Shown in pieces: positions 2,193 through 31,419 of a stretch of 34,729 nucleotides of DNA. Below the pieces are notes generated by a model. The model was not told the DNA's origin and searched no databases. It saw nothing but the letters and a program-made list of their open reading frames with translations. Position numbers and translations under genes: made by a program. How positions within the stretch are numbered: the first letter of the stretch is position 1; every line of letters begins with the position of its first letter. The stretch is from an uncultured SAR86 cluster bacterium. GTDB lineage: Bacteria; Pseudomonadota; Gammaproteobacteria; Magnimaribacterales; D2472. Where the stretch lies: assembly GCA_902559345.1 (NCBI GenBank), contig CACEHH010000001.1, forward strand, positions 1 through 34,729, written 5' to 3'.

Positions 2193-2663
2193 ATGAACTT
2201 CAAATATATTACTAAAACTGCTATAGCCATTACAGCTTTAATTGGCTCCTTTAACTTAGAAAGTTTCACTGCTAGTAATAGTCCATTGCTACTGGTTCAT
2301 AAAACACCTACATGCGGTTGTTGCAAGCAATGGATTAAGCATTTGGAAAAAAATGGATTTTCTATATCAACTAAAGATCATCAAAGTCTTCAAGAAATTA
2401 AGGAAAGTTATCAAATTAAATCTGAATACAGATCTTGTCATACCGGTGTATCAAAAGATGGTTATATTTTTGAAGGTCACATCCCAAGTAAATATATAAC
2501 TCAATTTCTATCTGAAGAACATTCCAATGCAATTGGCTTGTCAGTTCCTGGAATGCCTCTAGGCTCACCTGGAATGGAGGTTGAAGGAAAATTTATGCCT
2601 TATGATGTCCTTATACTTTTTAAAGATGGAACAAGTAAGGTATATGCCGAAGTTAGAGAATAA
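2193..2663 (+). CDS. DUF411 family exported metal-binding protein
   Basis: The 156-residue protein begins with a hydrophobic stretch (about 8-21) that looks like a signal peptide, so it is probably periplasmic. The mature part matches DUF411: the CGCC cysteine motif after KTPT (Cys41, Cys43, Cys44), the SCHT motif (Cys82, His83), EGHIP (His96), and VPGMPLGSPGME with Met121 and Met128. Family members often sit beside copper-resistance genes and are thought to bind metal; a direct biochemical role is not well established. The ATG is only 20 nt past the terminator of the previous gene, with no visible Shine-Dalgarno, so its promoter must overlap that terminator or it depends on read-through. The next gene, a COG0523 GTPase, starts 51 bp downstream, and a joint metal-homeostasis role is likely. 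Confidence 0.85.
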   Translation: MNFKYITKTAIAITALIGSFNLESFTASNSPLLLVHKTPTCGCCKQWIKHLEKNGFSISTKDHQSLQEIKESYQIKSEYRSCHTGVSKDGYIFEGHIPSKYITQFLSEEHSNAIGLSVPGMPLGSPGMEVEGKFMPYDVLILFKDGTSKVYAEVRE

Positions 2664-2714: not shown

Positions 2715-3920
2715 ATGAATATTACAGACAGATTGCCTGTTACTGTTTTGTCTGGTTTTTTGGGTGCTGGTAAAACAACAGTACTAAGTCATATATTAAA
2801 TAACCGTCAAAATAAAAAAGTTGCGGTTATTGTTAACGATATGAGTGAAATTAATATTGATGCTTCGATGGTAAAAAATGAAGTATCTCTAAGTCACAGC
2901 GAAGAAAAATTAGTTGAAATGAGCAACGGATGTATTTGCTGTACTTTAAGAGAAGATCTGCTGTTAGAGGTAAATAAATTAGCTAAAGATAATAAATTTG
3001 ATCATCTTGTAATTGAATCAACAGGAATTTCAGAACCTCTCCCCGTTGCAGAAACTTTTACCTTTGCTGATGAAAATGGTGTTTCTCTATCAGAAGTTGC
3101 CAAGCTTGATACTATGGTCACAGTTGTTGATGCTGTTAATTTTTTAAAAGATTATGAAGATGCTAAGTATCTTCAAGACACTGGTGAGTCATTGGGTGAA
3201 GATGATGAACGAAGTGTTGCAGATTTATTGGTTGATCAAATCGAATTTGCTGATGTAATTCTGATAAGCAAAACTGATCTAGTTAAAGCTGACGATATAA
3301 CTAAGTTAAAAGCTATTCTCAAGAACCTTAATACTAATGCCCGAATATTGCCTATTACTATGGGTAAAGTGGAAATTGAAGAAGTGCTAGATACTGGCTT
3401 ATTTGATTTTGAGAAAGCAAAAGAAGCTCCTGGATGGCTCAAAGAAATGCGTGGAGATCATACTCCTGAAACTGAAGAATATGGGATAAGTAGTTTTAGT
3501 TATGTTGCCCGTCGACCATTTCTTCCAGAAAAGTTTTTTAACTTTGTTCATGATACTCAAAAGTTTGGAAAATTAATAAGATCTAAGGGATATTTTTGGT
3601 TAGGTTCACGTCTTGAATATGCCGGACAATGGAGTCAAGCAGGTGGTATTGCTCGTTATGGTTTTGCAGGAATGTTTTGGAGATCTGTGCCAAAAAAAGA
3701 CTGGCCAACAGATGAGGAGTCTTTAAAAACTATAAGAGAAAATTGGGTAGAACCATTTGGTGATATGCGACAAGAATTAGTTTTTATCGGACAAAATCTT
3801 GATAAAGAAGCTATGATTCAAGCTCTTGACGATTGTCTTGTCACTGAAGACGATATGCTTAAAGGTGAAGAATTTTGGACTTCATTGGAAGATCCTTTTC
3901 CTCCTTGGCAAGAAATTTAA
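2715..3920 (+). CDS. COG0523/CobW-family GTPase, putative zinc metallochaperone (ZigA-like)
   Basis: A 401-residue G3E GTPase. Walker [10 protein letters not shown] is at 14-22, the metal-binding CICC motif at 73-76 (Cys73, Cys75, Cys76), ESTGISEP follows as the switch/Walker B region, and SKTDLV stands for the NKxD base-recognition motif. The C-terminal half (from about 255) is a CobW_C-type domain. Length and the long C-terminal region fit the ZigA/YciC-like zinc-chaperone branch better than cobalamin CobW, and no cobalamin genes are near. Such proteins deliver metal to client enzymes, often under zinc limitation. Translation signals are good (AGGA at 2704-2707, 7 nt before the ATG). A perfect TTGACA lies at 2669-2674 but the -10 is weak. 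The stop codon is only 4 bp from an oppositely oriented tRNA. Confidence 0.85.
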
Positions 3921-27081: not shown

Positions 27082-27123
27082 ATCAGTGTTTAATTGCTCT
27101 ACTTTACAAAATTGTTAATACAA

Positions 27124-27726
27124 ATGATAGTAGACTTTATTTTTGACGTAGCAAGCCCAAATACTTATTTTGCACATAAGTTAATTCCTGGTTTTGAAAA
27201 AAGGACCGGAACAAAGTTTAAATATATACCATGTTTGCTAGGTGGAATTCATAAACTTTCAAATAATCAACCGCCTTTTATTGCATATGCAGACTGTAAA
27301 AATAAAAGCGCTTATCAGATGATTGAAGTAGAGCGTTTTGTAAAACAACATAAATTAACTAAATATAAATTTAACTCGCATTTTCCTCCTGTAACTATTC
27401 AAGTTCAAAGAGGAGCAATTGCTGCTCAAGAGCTCAATATCTTTAATGAATATTTCGAATGCGTTATTTCTGCAATGTGGGAAAATAATAAGAACATATC
27501 AGATATCAATATTCTTCAAGAGGTTCTTGAAGAAAAAAGCTTTGATGTTAATTCAATAATGAAAATTATTACATCTCAAGACTGCAAAGATAAGTTAATT
27601 GCTAATACTGATAATGCTGTTTCACGTGGAGCTTTTGGTGCTCCTACTTTCTTTTTTGATGATCAAATTTTCTTTGGTAAAGATCACCTTTATCAATTAG
27701 AAGAATATATAAATTCAAAAAAATAA
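27124..27726 (+). CDS. 2-hydroxychromene-2-carboxylate isomerase-like (kappa-GST/DsbA-fold) protein
   Basis: I choose the ATG at 27124 (200 residues), because homologues start just before the first strand; a TTG at 27094 would add ten residues of no family character. DFIFDVASPNTYFAH (4-18) contains the Ser11 that binds glutathione thiolate in this family. GAFGAPTFFFDDQIFFGKDHL near the C-terminus is the standard cis-Pro region and ending. HCCA isomerases act in naphthalene breakdown, but most family members in bacteria without that pathway have unknown glutathione-dependent roles. It is divergent from the two SDR genes; a link to them or to gshB is speculative. Confidence 0.88.
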   Translation: MIVDFIFDVASPNTYFAHKLIPGFEKRTGTKFKYIPCLLGGIHKLSNNQPPFIAYADCKNKSAYQMIEVERFVKQHKLTKYKFNSHFPPVTIQVQRGAIAAQELNIFNEYFECVISAMWENNKNISDINILQEVLEEKSFDVNSIMKIITSQDCKDKLIANTDNAVSRGAFGAPTFFFDDQIFFGKDHLYQLEEYINSKK

Positions 27727-27778: not shown

Positions 27779-30172
27779 ATGTCCGTTGGAAGAAAAAAAA
27801 TATTTTTAATTATGATCCTAGTTTTTCAAGGATACGTAAATAGCGACTTAATTAAGGACGGTGTTCTAACTGAAAATAAAACAAATAATAATATGTGTCT
27901 AATTTACCAGCCATATCTTGGGGTTGTTGAAAGTATTGAAGGCATCGATATTAAATCAGAAAAATTTGAGATAACTGATGATGATGTTCTTTTGCTTCAA
28001 GGTGATGTTGATATTGATTTCCCAGATGGAATTCTTAAATCTAACAAAGTTAAATTAGATAGAACTAATGGATTACTCCAATTTAAAGGTGATAGCAATT
28101 TATTCCTTGAAGATTATTTTTTTAGATCTAACAAAGGCTCTTTTGATAAAGATGAGCAAGCTATAGAGCTATATAATGGGAAAGCCTTTTTTAATGATAG
28201 AAATCTTATTTTGAATTTTGAAAGTCTCAAGGGCAGTTTAAAAAATAAAATCATTCTAAACCAAGTCTCAATGACTTCTTGTGCTGATACAAAAAATGGA
28301 TGGGAATTTATTGCTGAAAATATTGAATTGAATGATAAATCTAAAAGAGGATATGCAAAAAATGTAAAGATAAAAGTTCTAAATAAAACCATAGCAAAGC
28401 TTCCCTTAGTCCCTTTTGCAACTTCTGATCAAAGAATGACTGGCTTTTTAGAGCCTTCAATATCTTATTCTTCAGATGGATTAGATTTTATGATCCCCTA
28501 CTACAAAGTACTATCAGACAAGTCTGATATCACTTTAGCTCCTAGAAACATTTCTGAACGTGGATTCGGATTTGAGGGTAATTATAGAAGATTGCATGGT
28601 GATGAAAAAAATCTTAGTAACTTTGATTTTATTTATTTCAATAAAGATAAAGATTATAACGAGCTATACCCGAACAAGGCTAATAACAGGTGGGCATTTA
28701 GCCTTAATGATTCATACGGTAAAGATAATAAATTTTGGATAAATATTGATTGGGCAAAAGCTTCTGATAGTCTTGTTCTTAGGGACATCTCAGGTGATAT
28801 TACTTCTATAGGCAGTCAAAGAGCTCAAAACTTAAGACAGAATATTTCAATTAATGGCGTCGTTGGAAATCTTGGTATTAAGGTTGAGCATCAAGGATTT
28901 CAAACATTGAATCCAATTCTTACAAATGGTTATAGAAAAATGCCCTCCTTAGAGTTTCAATTCTTTAAAGATTTTAAGAATTTCACTGTACATGAGCAAT
29001 TAAATATCTCTTATTTTAAAGCTGATAATATTCATGGTTTTTATGGTTACCAAGAAAAAAATAATAAATTTCTTTATTCAATAGCTGATCCAGCTGAAGG
29101 TTCAAGAGTTTTCTCAAACTTTAAAATTACTAACCACACAAATTTAAATGGTTTGAATATTTCTTCATCATTAGGATTTAAAAGCATTAATTATAATTTA
29201 GACGATAAAACAATAAATACAAATTCAGTAAATGTTCCAAGTTTTAGATTGGATATAAATACTCTCTTTTACAAACAAGACAAAATGGCTGTTCATTTAT
29301 TAAAACCCAGGCTGGTATTCGGATATGTTGGATATGAAAAACAAGACATGAATCCTGTTTTTGATACTCACAGCCTTTCAATGATGAATCAGCTATTTAA
29401 TACTGATAGATTTACCGGCATGGATAGAATAGGAGATCAAACATTTTATACCCTAAACCTTGAATATAAAAAACGTGAAATGAGTATGGATAAAATATCA
29501 ATTAATATTTCTAAAAAGTTTTATCTAGAAGATAGGAAGGTTTTGATCAATAGCATGGACATGCCTCAAATGAATATGCCGATGACAGATATGACAATGA
29601 TGGATATGGGTATGTCTGGCATGATGAGTGATATGGATGAGGGCCCATTAATGATAATGGGGAAATGGATGCCAGATATGAATACAATGATCATGACATA
29701 TGGTAGTTATGTAAAAGATCTTAAGAAATTTCCTATGGCAGGATTAACTGTTAAGAAGAAATTTGAAGTTGGTACTTTTGGTTATGCAAAAAGATATAAG
29801 AAAATGTCCGGTGATTTTAATACTGTATTAGATTATTCAGAAATTTCTGCTGACTTTGAGATTAGAAATAATCTAAGTGTAATTGCTAAATTAAAAAGAG
29901 ATGATGATTCGGATTCTAAAATTGAATCTATATTAGGCTTAGGTTATGAGAATTGTTGTTTTGTTTTTAGATTAACAGCTTCTGACAAAAACCTATCAAA
30001 GTATCTTCCAGATATTGAATCAGATTCTTATATGTATCTTAATGATGCATGGGATAATATAATAAGAATTGAAAACAAGAGTAGGGTTAATTTTCAGTTT
30101 GAGTTTAAAGGCTTAAACTCCTCTTTTGAGAAAATTAATAGATTGATGAATAACTCTATTTTTAACTATTAA
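27779..30172 (+). CDS. lptD: LPS-assembly outer membrane protein LptD, with a Met-rich insertion
   Basis: The 797-residue protein inserts LPS into the outer leaflet. A signal peptide (1-22) is followed by the OstA-like jellyroll (about 50-170) and the LptD barrel (about 200-797). The four cysteines of LptD's disulfides are all present: Cys40, Cys168 and the adjacent Cys726-Cys727 (YENCCF). PFATSDQRMTGFLEPSISYSS is the conserved start of the barrel. Residues 593-639 contain 19 methionines, mostly as MxM and DM pairs with several aspartates; this is not a feature of LptD I know and lies where an extracellular loop is likely. A sigma-E-like promoter precedes the gene and surA follows after 5 bp. 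Confidence 0.93.
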   Translation: MSVGRKKIFLIMILVFQGYVNSDLIKDGVLTENKTNNNMCLIYQPYLGVVESIEGIDIKSEKFEITDDDVLLLQGDVDIDFPDGILKSNKVKLDRTNGLLQFKGDSNLFLEDYFFRSNKGSFDKDEQAIELYNGKAFFNDRNLILNFESLKGSLKNKIILNQVSMTSCADTKNGWEFIAENIELNDKSKRGYAKNVKIKVLNKTIAKLPLVPFATSDQRMTGFLEPSISYSSDGLDFMIPYYKVLSDKSDITLAPRNISERGFGFEGNYRRLHGDEKNLSNFDFIYFNKDKDYNELYPNKANNRWAFSLNDSYGKDNKFWINIDWAKASDSLVLRDISGDITSIGSQRAQNLRQNISINGVVGNLGIKVEHQGFQTLNPILTNGYRKMPSLEFQFFKDFKNFTVHEQLNISYFKADNIHGFYGYQEKNNKFLYSIADPAEGSRVFSNFKITNHTNLNGLNISSSLGFKSINYNLDDKTINTNSVNVPSFRLDINTLFYKQDKMAVHLLKPRLVFGYVGYEKQDMNPVFDTHSLSMMNQLFNTDRFTGMDRIGDQTFYTLNLEYKKREMSMDKISINISKKFYLEDRKVLINSMDMPQMNMPMTDMTMMDMGMSGMMSDMDEGPLMIMGKWMPDMNTMIMTYGSYVKDLKKFPMAGLTVKKKFEVGTFGYAKRYKKMSGDFNTVLDYSEISADFEIRNNLSVIAKLKRDDDSDSKIESILGLGYENCCFVFRLTASDKNLSKYLPDIESDSYMYLNDAWDNIIRIENKSRVNFQFEFKGLNSSFEKINRLMNNSIFNY

Positions 30173-30177
30173 ATTAT

Positions 30178-31419
30178 ATGAATAAATCTCTTATTACAAT
30201 ATCGATCTTAATTTCTTCCTTATCTTATGCAAAGGTTGAGGTGCTAGATAGAATTGCAATTATTGTTGATGACGGTGTAGTCATGGAGTCCCAAATCCAA
30301 TCTACTATTGATGAGGTTATAGACAGGTACGAAGATCAAAATCTTGAAAAACCACCTCAAGATATTTTGGAAGAGCAGGTTAAAGAAAAGCTGATAATTG
30401 AAGAGCTTCAGTTACAAATGGCGGATAGAGCTGGTATTAAAATAAGTGATGCTGAGCTAAACCTTACAATGAGTAGACTTGCATCTAATAATGGAATGGC
30501 TTTAGAAGAATTCATTCAGTTCATTGAAAATAATGGTGATTCATACGAAGAATTAAGAGAACAGATGCGCAGAGAAATGAGAATTCAAAGAATTCAAAGA
30601 GGCAGAGTAAATTCAAGTATTGATATAACTGAAAAAGAGTTTGAAGCCTTTTTAGCAACAGATGAAAGTCTAAAATTATTAGAGCCTGAAATATTAGTGA
30701 GACAAATATTGGTTAAAGATATTTTGTTGGCAAAAGAAACTATTGATGAAATTAATGGTGGAGCCGATTTCGGAGAAATTGCTAAGAGAGTTTCTATTAG
30801 CTCAAATGCTTCCACTGGGGGCCTTATGAATTGGAGAAAAATAATTGATATGCCTGAATTATTTGAAAAAGCTTTAGAAAAAAAATCGATTGGTTTTATC
30901 TCAGAGCCACTGGAAAGTGGATCAGGATTTCATATATTAAAGCTTGAGGATAAAAGAGGAGAGTTTGTAAAATTTGAGGACCAATGGCAATCGCGACATA
31001 TTCTCTTAATTCCCTCAGCAATAAGAAATGAAAAAGAAACAGAAAAACAACTTAATGAAATAAGACAAAGAATTATAGATGGTGATGATTTTGGGTCCCT
31101 TGCAGATGAATTTTCTGAAGATCCTGGATCAGCAAAACAAGGTGGTGATTTAGGATGGCTAGGCTTGGGTGTTCTAGCAACTGAATTCGAAAATATCATG
31201 CTTGAAACAAGCATTGGCAATCTATCGCAGGTGTTTCAAACTGAATTTGGTTTTCATTTTCTTGAGGTTTTAGGAAAAAGAAGCCATGAGCTAACTGATG
31301 AGTTAATAAAAGATAGAGCATATTCTATTCTTTATGCAAGAAAATTTGATGAAGAACTCGAAAATACTCTAAGATCAATGAGAGCAGAAGCATTCGTTGA
31401 ATTTAAAGATCTAGATTGA
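30178..31419 (+). CDS. surA: Periplasmic peptidyl-prolyl isomerase/chaperone SurA
   Basis: The 413-residue protein folds outer-membrane proteins, LptD among them. It has a signal peptide (1-18), the SurA N-terminal chaperone domain (RIAIIVDDGVVMESQI, then long helices to about 150), and two parvulin domains. The first (about 170-260) has GGLMNWRKI and GFHILKLED; the second (about 275-385) has SRHILL, DPGSAKQGGDLGWLG and FGFHFLEV and looks the more canonical, probably the active one. The C-terminal helix that rejoins the chaperone core is present. Length and order after lptD match E. coli (428). It overlaps pdxA by 4 bp. Confidence 0.96.
   Translation: MNKSLITISILISSLSYAKVEVLDRIAIIVDDGVVMESQIQSTIDEVIDRYEDQNLEKPPQDILEEQVKEKLIIEELQLQMADRAGIKISDAELNLTMSRLASNNGMALEEFIQFIENNGDSYEELREQMRREMRIQRIQRGRVNSSIDITEKEFEAFLATDESLKLLEPEILVRQILVKDILLAKETIDEINGGADFGEIAKRVSISSNASTGGLMNWRKIIDMPELFEKALEKKSIGFISEPLESGSGFHILKLEDKRGEFVKFEDQWQSRHILLIPSAIRNEKETEKQLNEIRQRIIDGDDFGSLADEFSEDPGSAKQGGDLGWLGLGVLATEFENIMLETSIGNLSQVFQTEFGFHFLEVLGKRSHELTDELIKDRAYSILYARKFDEELENTLRSMRAEAFVEFKDLD

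Follow-up and report, generated by a model that had tools for sequence, protein, structure and literature searches.

The window analysed here is the whole 34,729-nt stretch of contig CACEHH010000001.1 (GenBank assembly GCA_902559345.1), from an uncultured SAR86 cluster bacterium whose genome (G000) is 0.92 Mb and ~72% complete, with an own contig (C1) of 110.7 kb. It carries lptD, encoding the outer-membrane lipopolysaccharide (LPS) transporter LptD, and within this gene a segment dense in methionine (Met). The product matched PF04453 in a profile search (E=7.8e-26, 91.7 bits against a cut-off of 22.4), and all 15 of its sequence matches in the PDB at E<=0.001 were LptD, one of them under the name 'LPS biosynthesis protein'. 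When the predicted fold was compared with solved structures the best match was again LptD (9kn3_A; Z 24.5, root mean square deviation (rmsd) 5.6, 686 residues aligned), and the first 28 rows (Z 20.8-24.5) point, at the level of the overall fold, to the jellyroll and 26-strand barrel of LptD. The Cys pair at 726-727, which an earlier note on this DNA had placed in good LptD sequence, is invariant in an alignment of 69 rows. The open reading frame (ORF) directly 3' of lptD has SurA_N and Rotamase domains by profile search.

Of the 47 LptD residues from 593 to 639 (nt 29555-29695), 19 are Met, every one encoded by ATG; the remaining 750 residues include 18. This count, made in the earlier note together with the claim that no frameshift is involved, was borne out on a 797-residue open frame, and the same open frame with its segment recurs in 26/26 same-genus rows from separate assemblies, which rules out a frameshift or artefact. 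In 2000 shuffles of the whole of LptD no 47-residue window exceeded 11 Met. Scans for stretches rich in Met or Met+His covered C1 of the window's own genome, 1.08 Mb of the relative G008 (all but ~0.2 Mb) and 800 kb of a second relative, G026 (all but ~0.4 Mb). The segment is the Met-richest 47-residue window among the 125 ORFs kept on C1, and LptD also ranks first among 1058 ORFs of G008. We rejected, for both, the idea that SAR86 outer-membrane proteins as a whole are rich in Met, given 19 Met in LptD against at most 6 in any other ORF of C1, and 12 in LptD against 10 in the next ORF of G008 (a GroEL-like GGM tail).

Loops of the same genus are 43% Met, followed by S, N, D, G and P, and I, L and V together make up ~2%, so Met is not a stand-in for any hydrophobic residue. 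Pairs of adjacent Met are fewer than expected (42 against 79.1) and MxM is mildly frequent (89 against 76.8, standard deviation (sd) 5.3). For the motif MxMxxM, present in 14/14 non-redundant loops of the genus, the count is 47; shuffles give 28.0 (sd 4.2), and none of 1000 reaches 47. MxxMxM occurs 39 times against 28.1, with 7/1000 shuffles reaching 39; these shuffle counts are not probabilities because the rows are related and kinship is ignored. Searched alone against solved structures, the segment gave no match at E<=10, as expected for low complexity. Repeat-like units are visible in several relatives (loci L018, L021, L017 and L032; e.g. MSNSMNMGMM, NMPMNMMDM and MNSMNQ), and the Met-rich loop seems, from these sequences, to grow by in-frame duplication.

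To place the Met we used an AlphaFold2 model of LptD built from the 69-row alignment (mean predicted local distance difference test (pLDDT) 79.5, predicted template modelling score (pTM) 0.63). It has strands at 554-567, 570-582, 621-633, 636-645, 650-662 and onward, with residues 592-616 at pLDDT < 50. The turn at Cys726-727 must be periplasmic, since in LptD this pair is bonded to the N-terminal domain. Counting back from this turn puts residues 583-620 outside the cell and 634-635 and 568-569 on the periplasmic side; the outer loop thus numbered, with the turn taken as periplasmic, is L9, whose spacers are mainly D, N, S, G, P and T (Table 1). The earlier note had assigned the whole segment to an outer loop. 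This holds for residues 593-619, with 13 Met, which are predicted to be disordered and outside, and fails for the other 6 Met, which the model places in the barrel wall. A position in the wall had been offered as grounds for dropping the idea of a metal-binding or oxidation-sensing loop; a third of the Met do lie there, yet they appear to face the lumen. In 50 other LptDs, columns 627, 629, 631, 637, 639, 641 and 643 are polar and columns 624, 626, 628, 632, 638 and 642 hydrophobic (mean hydropathy 1.27 to 3.13). Column 627 averages -3.19 and is Glu in 37/50, columns 637 and 639 average -1.55 and -1.95, and columns 629, 641 and 643 average -1.47, -0.92 and -1.80. Because other LptDs have polar residues at columns 627, 631, 637 and 639, the Met at these positions are predicted to face the lumen, the facing of each Met being read from column polarity in other LptDs. 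Column 625 is hydrophobic both in the 50 other LptDs and in 24 loop-less rows of the family.

Table 1. Features of lptD and of nearby genes named in the text (window positions; looped rows are LptDs carrying the Met-rich loop).
Feature	Position (nt)	Strand	Remarks
DUF411 protein	2193-2663	+	PF04214 match 2427-2576
ORF read by eye as CobW-type GTPase	2715-3920	+	follows the DUF411 protein
DsbA-like thioredoxin-fold ORF	27094-27726	+	PF01323; directly 5' of lptD
lptD ORF	27779..30172	+	797 aa, single open frame; followed by surA at 30178
Cys40	27896..27898	+	LptD disulphide cysteine; nearly invariant, 69 rows
Cys168	28280..28282	+	LptD disulphide cysteine; invariant, 69 rows
Met535-Met536	29381..29386	+	long loop 518-553; possible further member of the set
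Met568 + Met570	29480..29488	+	short predicted periplasmic turn between strands 554-567 and 570-582
Outer loop L9, residues 593-619	29555..29635	+	13 Met; predicted disordered, variable but Met-preserving
Barrel hairpin adjoining L9, residues 621-645	29639..29713	+	strands 621-633 and 636-645; Met 625, 627, 631, 634, 637, 639
Met627	29657..29659	+	predicted lumen-facing; Met in 38/39 looped rows
Met631	29669..29671	+	predicted lumen-facing; Met in 38/39 looped rows; column mean hydropathy -2.33 in 50 other LptDs
Met634	29678..29680	+	predicted periplasmic hairpin turn 634-635; Met in 31/39 looped rows
Met637 + Met639	29687..29695	+	predicted lumen-facing; Met in 39/39 looped rows each
Cys726-Cys727	29954..29959	+	adjacent pair near C-terminus, periplasmic topology anchor; invariant, 69 rows

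The DsbA-like ORF stands directly before a gene whose product needs disulphides, and may instead encode an isomerase that shares the fold but is unrelated.

We then measured how Met is retained among 14 non-redundant same-genus rows (L008, which contains unknown residues, was left out). In the loop half (593-619) the share of comparisons with a match was 0.73 for Met and 0.18 for other residues; the corresponding values were 0.96 and 0.65 in the hairpin half (620-639) and 0.64 and 0.60 in the rest of LptD. Alignment alone pulls Met onto Met, and the loop was therefore compared with a shuffled-and-realigned baseline: after realignment the real loops retained 0.776 of Met and 0.203 of other residues, and row-wise shuffled and realigned loops 0.571 (sd 0.040, maximum 0.674) and 0.120. 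In a codon simulation without selection (300 runs), 4.5 of 13 Met were left on average at 40% spacer identity (maximum 11) and 2.3 of 13 at 20% (maximum 7). Without any alignment, the number of Met is steady in loops while the spacers turn over almost freely. Retention of 73-78% for Met against 18-20% for other residues excludes the random drift of Met positions that the earlier note had considered, and together these comparisons support a loop whose composition is conserved while the positions of its residues are not.

A match to lptD was found in 27/34 genomes of the genus and 91/107 of the family, and 71 LptDs were read from these 91 family genomes. With the window's genus as g1 and the family's other genera as g2-g10, Met over positions 591-643 number 12-25 in 26/26 rows of g1, so that the composition, which the earlier note had left to an alignment of relatives, is indeed kept, and the lack of the segment in every close relative, which that note would have counted as refuting, is not what is seen. 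Counts are 9-15 in 10 rows of g9 and 2-4 in its 4 others, 10-13 in g4 (3 rows), 8 in g8 (1 row) and 5-7 in g6 (3 rows), where the loop is short. They fall to 1 in g2 (1 row), 0 in g3 (7 rows), 1-2 in g5 (12 rows), 0-2 in g7 (3 rows) and 1 in g10 (1 row). The partial L027 is inside the count of 26 g1 rows and outside the 39 looped rows; excluded throughout were L034-L043 (copies from a named collection, L043 with a truncated frame) and L026 and L028 (from G024, with several stops and the loop not read). The two G024 pieces of lptD, which have 6 stops and 1, are odd for an essential gene and reflect either sequencing error or a broken copy. In a tree built without the loop, a branch sets g1 (support 100) apart from all other rows, and another does so for g9 (99); the tree does not firmly order g8, g2, g4, g9 and g1, and some joins are flagged for long branches. 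The per-genus counts and this loop-free tree, both drawn from sequence, indicate that the Met-rich feature is restricted to part of the family, with weakening or loss in up to three g9 lineages.

None of 50 LptDs from outside the family exceeded 5 Met in any 47 residues. These comprise 20 from the order's other families and 30 from the class; the latter are the best-scoring PF04453 loci of 266 class genomes with a match, and this sample leans to typical LptDs for that reason. A profile of the loop with its flanks (A2), run over 369 class genomes, gave 2 matches, both in the window's genus. A protein search in named genomes returned 10 loci, of which 8 are from SAR86 cluster bacteria, 1 from SAR86B and 1 from an uncultured gammaproteobacterium.

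Met outside the loop follow it in the g9 rows that lack it. For this comparison we set six track positions (568, 570, 627, 634, 637 and 639) beside four control positions (165, 220, 238 and 548). The four loop-less g9 rows keep 1, 0, 1 and 0 of the six track Met, and all keep Met at the four control positions. Met568 and Met570, present in 36/39 and 37/39 looped rows, are Met in 0/4 of these rows, as are Met535 and Met536 (29/39 and 21/39 looped rows). Within g9 (n=14) the Spearman correlation of loop Met was 0.82 with track Met and -0.13 with control Met; over the whole family (n=70) the values were 0.91 and 0.74. We take this co-loss as a description, not a test, because the columns were picked post hoc and the rows are related.

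LptE, the partner protein, sits inside the LptD barrel. The Pfam LptE model gave few and weak matches (6/107 family genomes). Two Pfam-matched LptE ORFs carry a Met/His insert, and these led to a profile built from five of the Pfam-matched ORFs, which matched in 92/106 genomes; 70 LptEs were read. An insert bearing M[DN]H is present in 11/70, all within the 29 rows of the window's genus, with MDHSM in 8, MNHNM in 2, and DHSM and MDHST in G031. Where both proteins of a genus genome were read, the insert occurs in 10/11 rows of one LptD branch and in 0/12 rows outside it, the window's own among them. The single exception, G001, pairs an LptD (L021) nearly identical to that of G029 with an LptE (L246) of a different type, which may reflect recombination or a mixed assembly.

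The identity of these ORFs as LptE rests on a 69-row profile that matches three LptE chains at E 3e-4 to 5e-4, on the fold (best rows 2r76_B, Z 13.7, rmsd 2.5, 125 aligned, and 5ixm_F, Z 13.5; most of the best rows are LptE), on one invariant Cys at position 21 of the first row, as in a lipoprotein, and on position in G008, where the ORF follows one read by eye as LeuS and precedes one read as a polymerase delta subunit. Against this identity, single rows fell short of the cut-off of the Pfam model (three of five at 0.016-0.064, one at 0.00013) and three further rows had no Pfam match at all. The insert, 22% His, is predicted to be disordered (108-138, pLDDT < 50) between strands 92-104 and 142-151. 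Of the 853 ORFs scanned in G026 (800 kb), LptD ranks first for Met+His density (14 in 30 residues) and LptE shares second place with four others (9 in 30); LptE is the sole ORF with M[DN]Hx(0-2)M. The same genome encodes a TonB-dependent receptor (PF00593, PF07715; L303:3228-5504, minus strand) in which a stretch rich in Asp, Glu and His, DHMDEDEHHEDEDEHHEGEDEHHEDEDDDH, may form a different type of metal-capturing loop.

We compared these features with known systems. The SAR86 proteins resemble the LptD/LptE translocon (PF04453/PF04390) in sequence family, the four Cys, the predicted LptD barrel fold and the LptE fold, and differ from it in that one branch has the Met-rich L9 and predicted lumen-facing Met, and a sub-branch the LptE Met/His insert. 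Met-rich segments of CutO/CueO bind Cu(I) (PMC8456105). Like the SAR86 loop they are disordered or flexible extracytoplasmic inserts with Met among D, G, S and H, and the CutO segment printed there has MDH repeats resembling the SAR86 LptE insert; unlike it, they lie in a copper enzyme, whereas the SAR86 hosts are lipid transporter proteins. Deletion of the CutO segment only weakened copper resistance (PMC8456105). Loop composition has a cosine of 0.82 with the printed CutO segment and 0.48 with its own whole LptD, and the LptE insert one of 0.68 with CutO. The motif MxMxxM is described as the methionine-only, Cu(I)/Ag(I)-selective motif of the Ctr1 N-terminus (PMC9117721). The Mets motifs of the Ctr1 ectodomain share with the SAR86 loops, where it is enriched, an extracellular position and MxMxxM spacing, through which the loop answers to the description of a Mets motif (an extracytoplasmic Met cluster with MxM/MxxM spacing). 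Ctr1 itself is a eukaryotic trimeric importer unrelated to LptD, and any transport through LptD would be our extrapolation. CopM of Synechocystis, with 23 Met and 8 His, is likewise extracytoplasmic and binds Cu(I) tightly in vitro (PMC4335983); it differs in being soluble, DUF305-based and copper-induced, and we claim no homology.

This likeness in motif and composition to published Cu(I)-binding segments makes metal binding the best reading of the loop: the LptDE translocon of one SAR86 branch may bind a soft metal, most likely Cu(I) and also Ag(I), a proposal that we judge evenly poised between right and wrong. The disordered L9 would act as a flexible thioether cloud that captures an ion at the cell surface; the Met predicted to face the lumen (627, 631, 637 and 639) or to lie on the periplasmic side (634, 568 and 570) would form inner sites; and in one sub-branch the LptE inside the barrel would add its Met/His segment with MDHSM/MNHNM motifs. 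The ion could then be held at, or handed along, this track toward the periplasm, LptDE doubling as a copper buffer or entry point. The fuller version, in which LptDE is an outer-membrane Cu(I) conduit with capture by L9 and relay to the periplasm by the lumen and turn Met and, in a sub-branch, the LptE segment, we regard as doubtful.

Several results weigh against copper or silver binding. Copper-gene profiles were run over 107 family genomes, many of them incomplete, and 14 control genomes. The Cu-exporting ATPase model TIGR01511 matched in 0/107 family genomes and 14/14 controls, and Cu-oxidase_3 (PF07732) in 0/107 and 8/14; because both were nil in the family, nothing points to a copper programme accompanying the loop. 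DUF411 is present in 55/107 family genomes, including loop-less genera, and absent from the looped G008, and no copper gene adjoins lptD. Co-occurrence with copper genes is thus unsupported among those profiled, a set without CopB, Cus-type resistance-nodulation-division (RND) pumps and CopC/D, and for this reason we class the segment as one that may work like a copper protein and do not file it as one. The LptD loop has no Cys and few His in same-genus rows, MxMxM is not enriched (35 against 29.1, 140/1000 shuffles reaching it), and the window's own LptE, which lies outside the window, has no insert, nor does that of G001. In the 24 loop-less family rows the alternation of polar and hydrophobic columns is clear for 636-643 and not for 624-631; Met631 is kept in all 4 loop-less g9 rows; and the co-loss spans three lineages at most, with the limits of that comparison and of the shuffle counts given above. 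Finally, outer loops 5, 11, 12 and 13 of LptD are described as dispensable, L9 not being among them in the available excerpt (PMC8983717). The missing exporter matches can be read both ways, either as a need for buffering at the surface or as a sign that little copper is met. The window itself encodes a DUF411 protein, followed by an ORF read by eye as a CobW-type GTPase (Table 1).

We found no paper joining LptD with 'methionine-rich', and none joining LptE, copper and 'methionine-rich'; among the matches listed for LptD, copper and lipopolysaccharide there was no title on metal binding by LptD, and among those listed for SAR86 and copper no title on that subject. Taken singly, LptD and Met-rich copper segments are familiar; we found no record that joins them.

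Two alternatives, possible if unlikely, also count against metal binding. In the first, sacrificial surface Met would absorb reactive oxygen species in sunlit water, shield an essential machine and be repaired by exported methionine sulfoxide reductase (Msr). The preference of the loop for Met over I, L and V fits such an oxidant sink, as do the presence of MsrA in 103/107 family genomes, many of which encode it a second time in a frame of ~420-460 residues, and the signal-peptide-like start of the second MsrA read in G008. We consider it unlikely: the second MsrA is present also in the loop-less genera g3 and g5, an extracellular loop would probably be beyond the reach of a periplasmic Msr, and four near-invariant barrel positions, the periplasmic-turn Met and the His-bearing LptE insert are left unexplained. 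We know of no Msr repair enzyme outside the cell. The second MsrA ORF of G008 (L103; G008 C1 772311-773585) is ~424 residues long, with thioredoxin- and MsrB-like domains by eye. Distinctly unlikely, in our view, is the second alternative, in which unbranched, flexible Met side chains form an adaptable hydrophobic surface in contact with the acyl chains of lipid A or the inside of the barrel, aiding LPS release or gating. The loop does belong to an LPS transporter, Met is its only frequent hydrophobic residue, and extra Met occur elsewhere in LptD (165, 220, 238, 548 and 676). Such a surface sits poorly with polar spacers, predicted disorder and the avoidance of adjacent MM (42 against 79 expected), and a His-rich LptE insert is ill-suited to a greasy surface.

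Elsewhere among bacteria LptD serves phages as a receptor (PMC12685063), a further point against metal binding, and fold matches of the SAR86 protein include cryo-electron microscopy (cryo-EM) entries that pair LptDE with a phage receptor-binding protein. The loop differs in length among relatives and in some of them contains repeat-like units, as would be expected if length and repeats shifted under phage pressure. Escape of this kind predicts changing chemistry, whereas Met persists; the phage contacts reported in the available excerpt involve loops 4 and 5, not L9 (PMC12685063), and the LptE insert is not accounted for, making this highly improbable. A functionless low-complexity repeat expanded by slippage, the plain insertion entertained in the earlier note, scarcely survives: some loops do show repeat units and the tract is ATG-rich by nature, but Met is retained while spacers change freely, far more survive than in the neutral-decay simulation, and the hairpin Met are near-invariant.

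SAR86 is described as one of the most abundant bacterial groups in the surface ocean (PMC11582366). Copper binding by its LptDE would mean that a machine both essential and otherwise conserved had acquired a further role. It would also give a streamlined cell, in whose genome the models for the usual copper exporter and oxidase find no match, a means of handling copper at the outer membrane. Should the conduit also exist, copper uptake or sensing would be tied to LPS export in cells without a Cu-exporting ATPase match. Metal binding by LptDE would also connect metal state with the assembly of the outer membrane in a way that can be tested.

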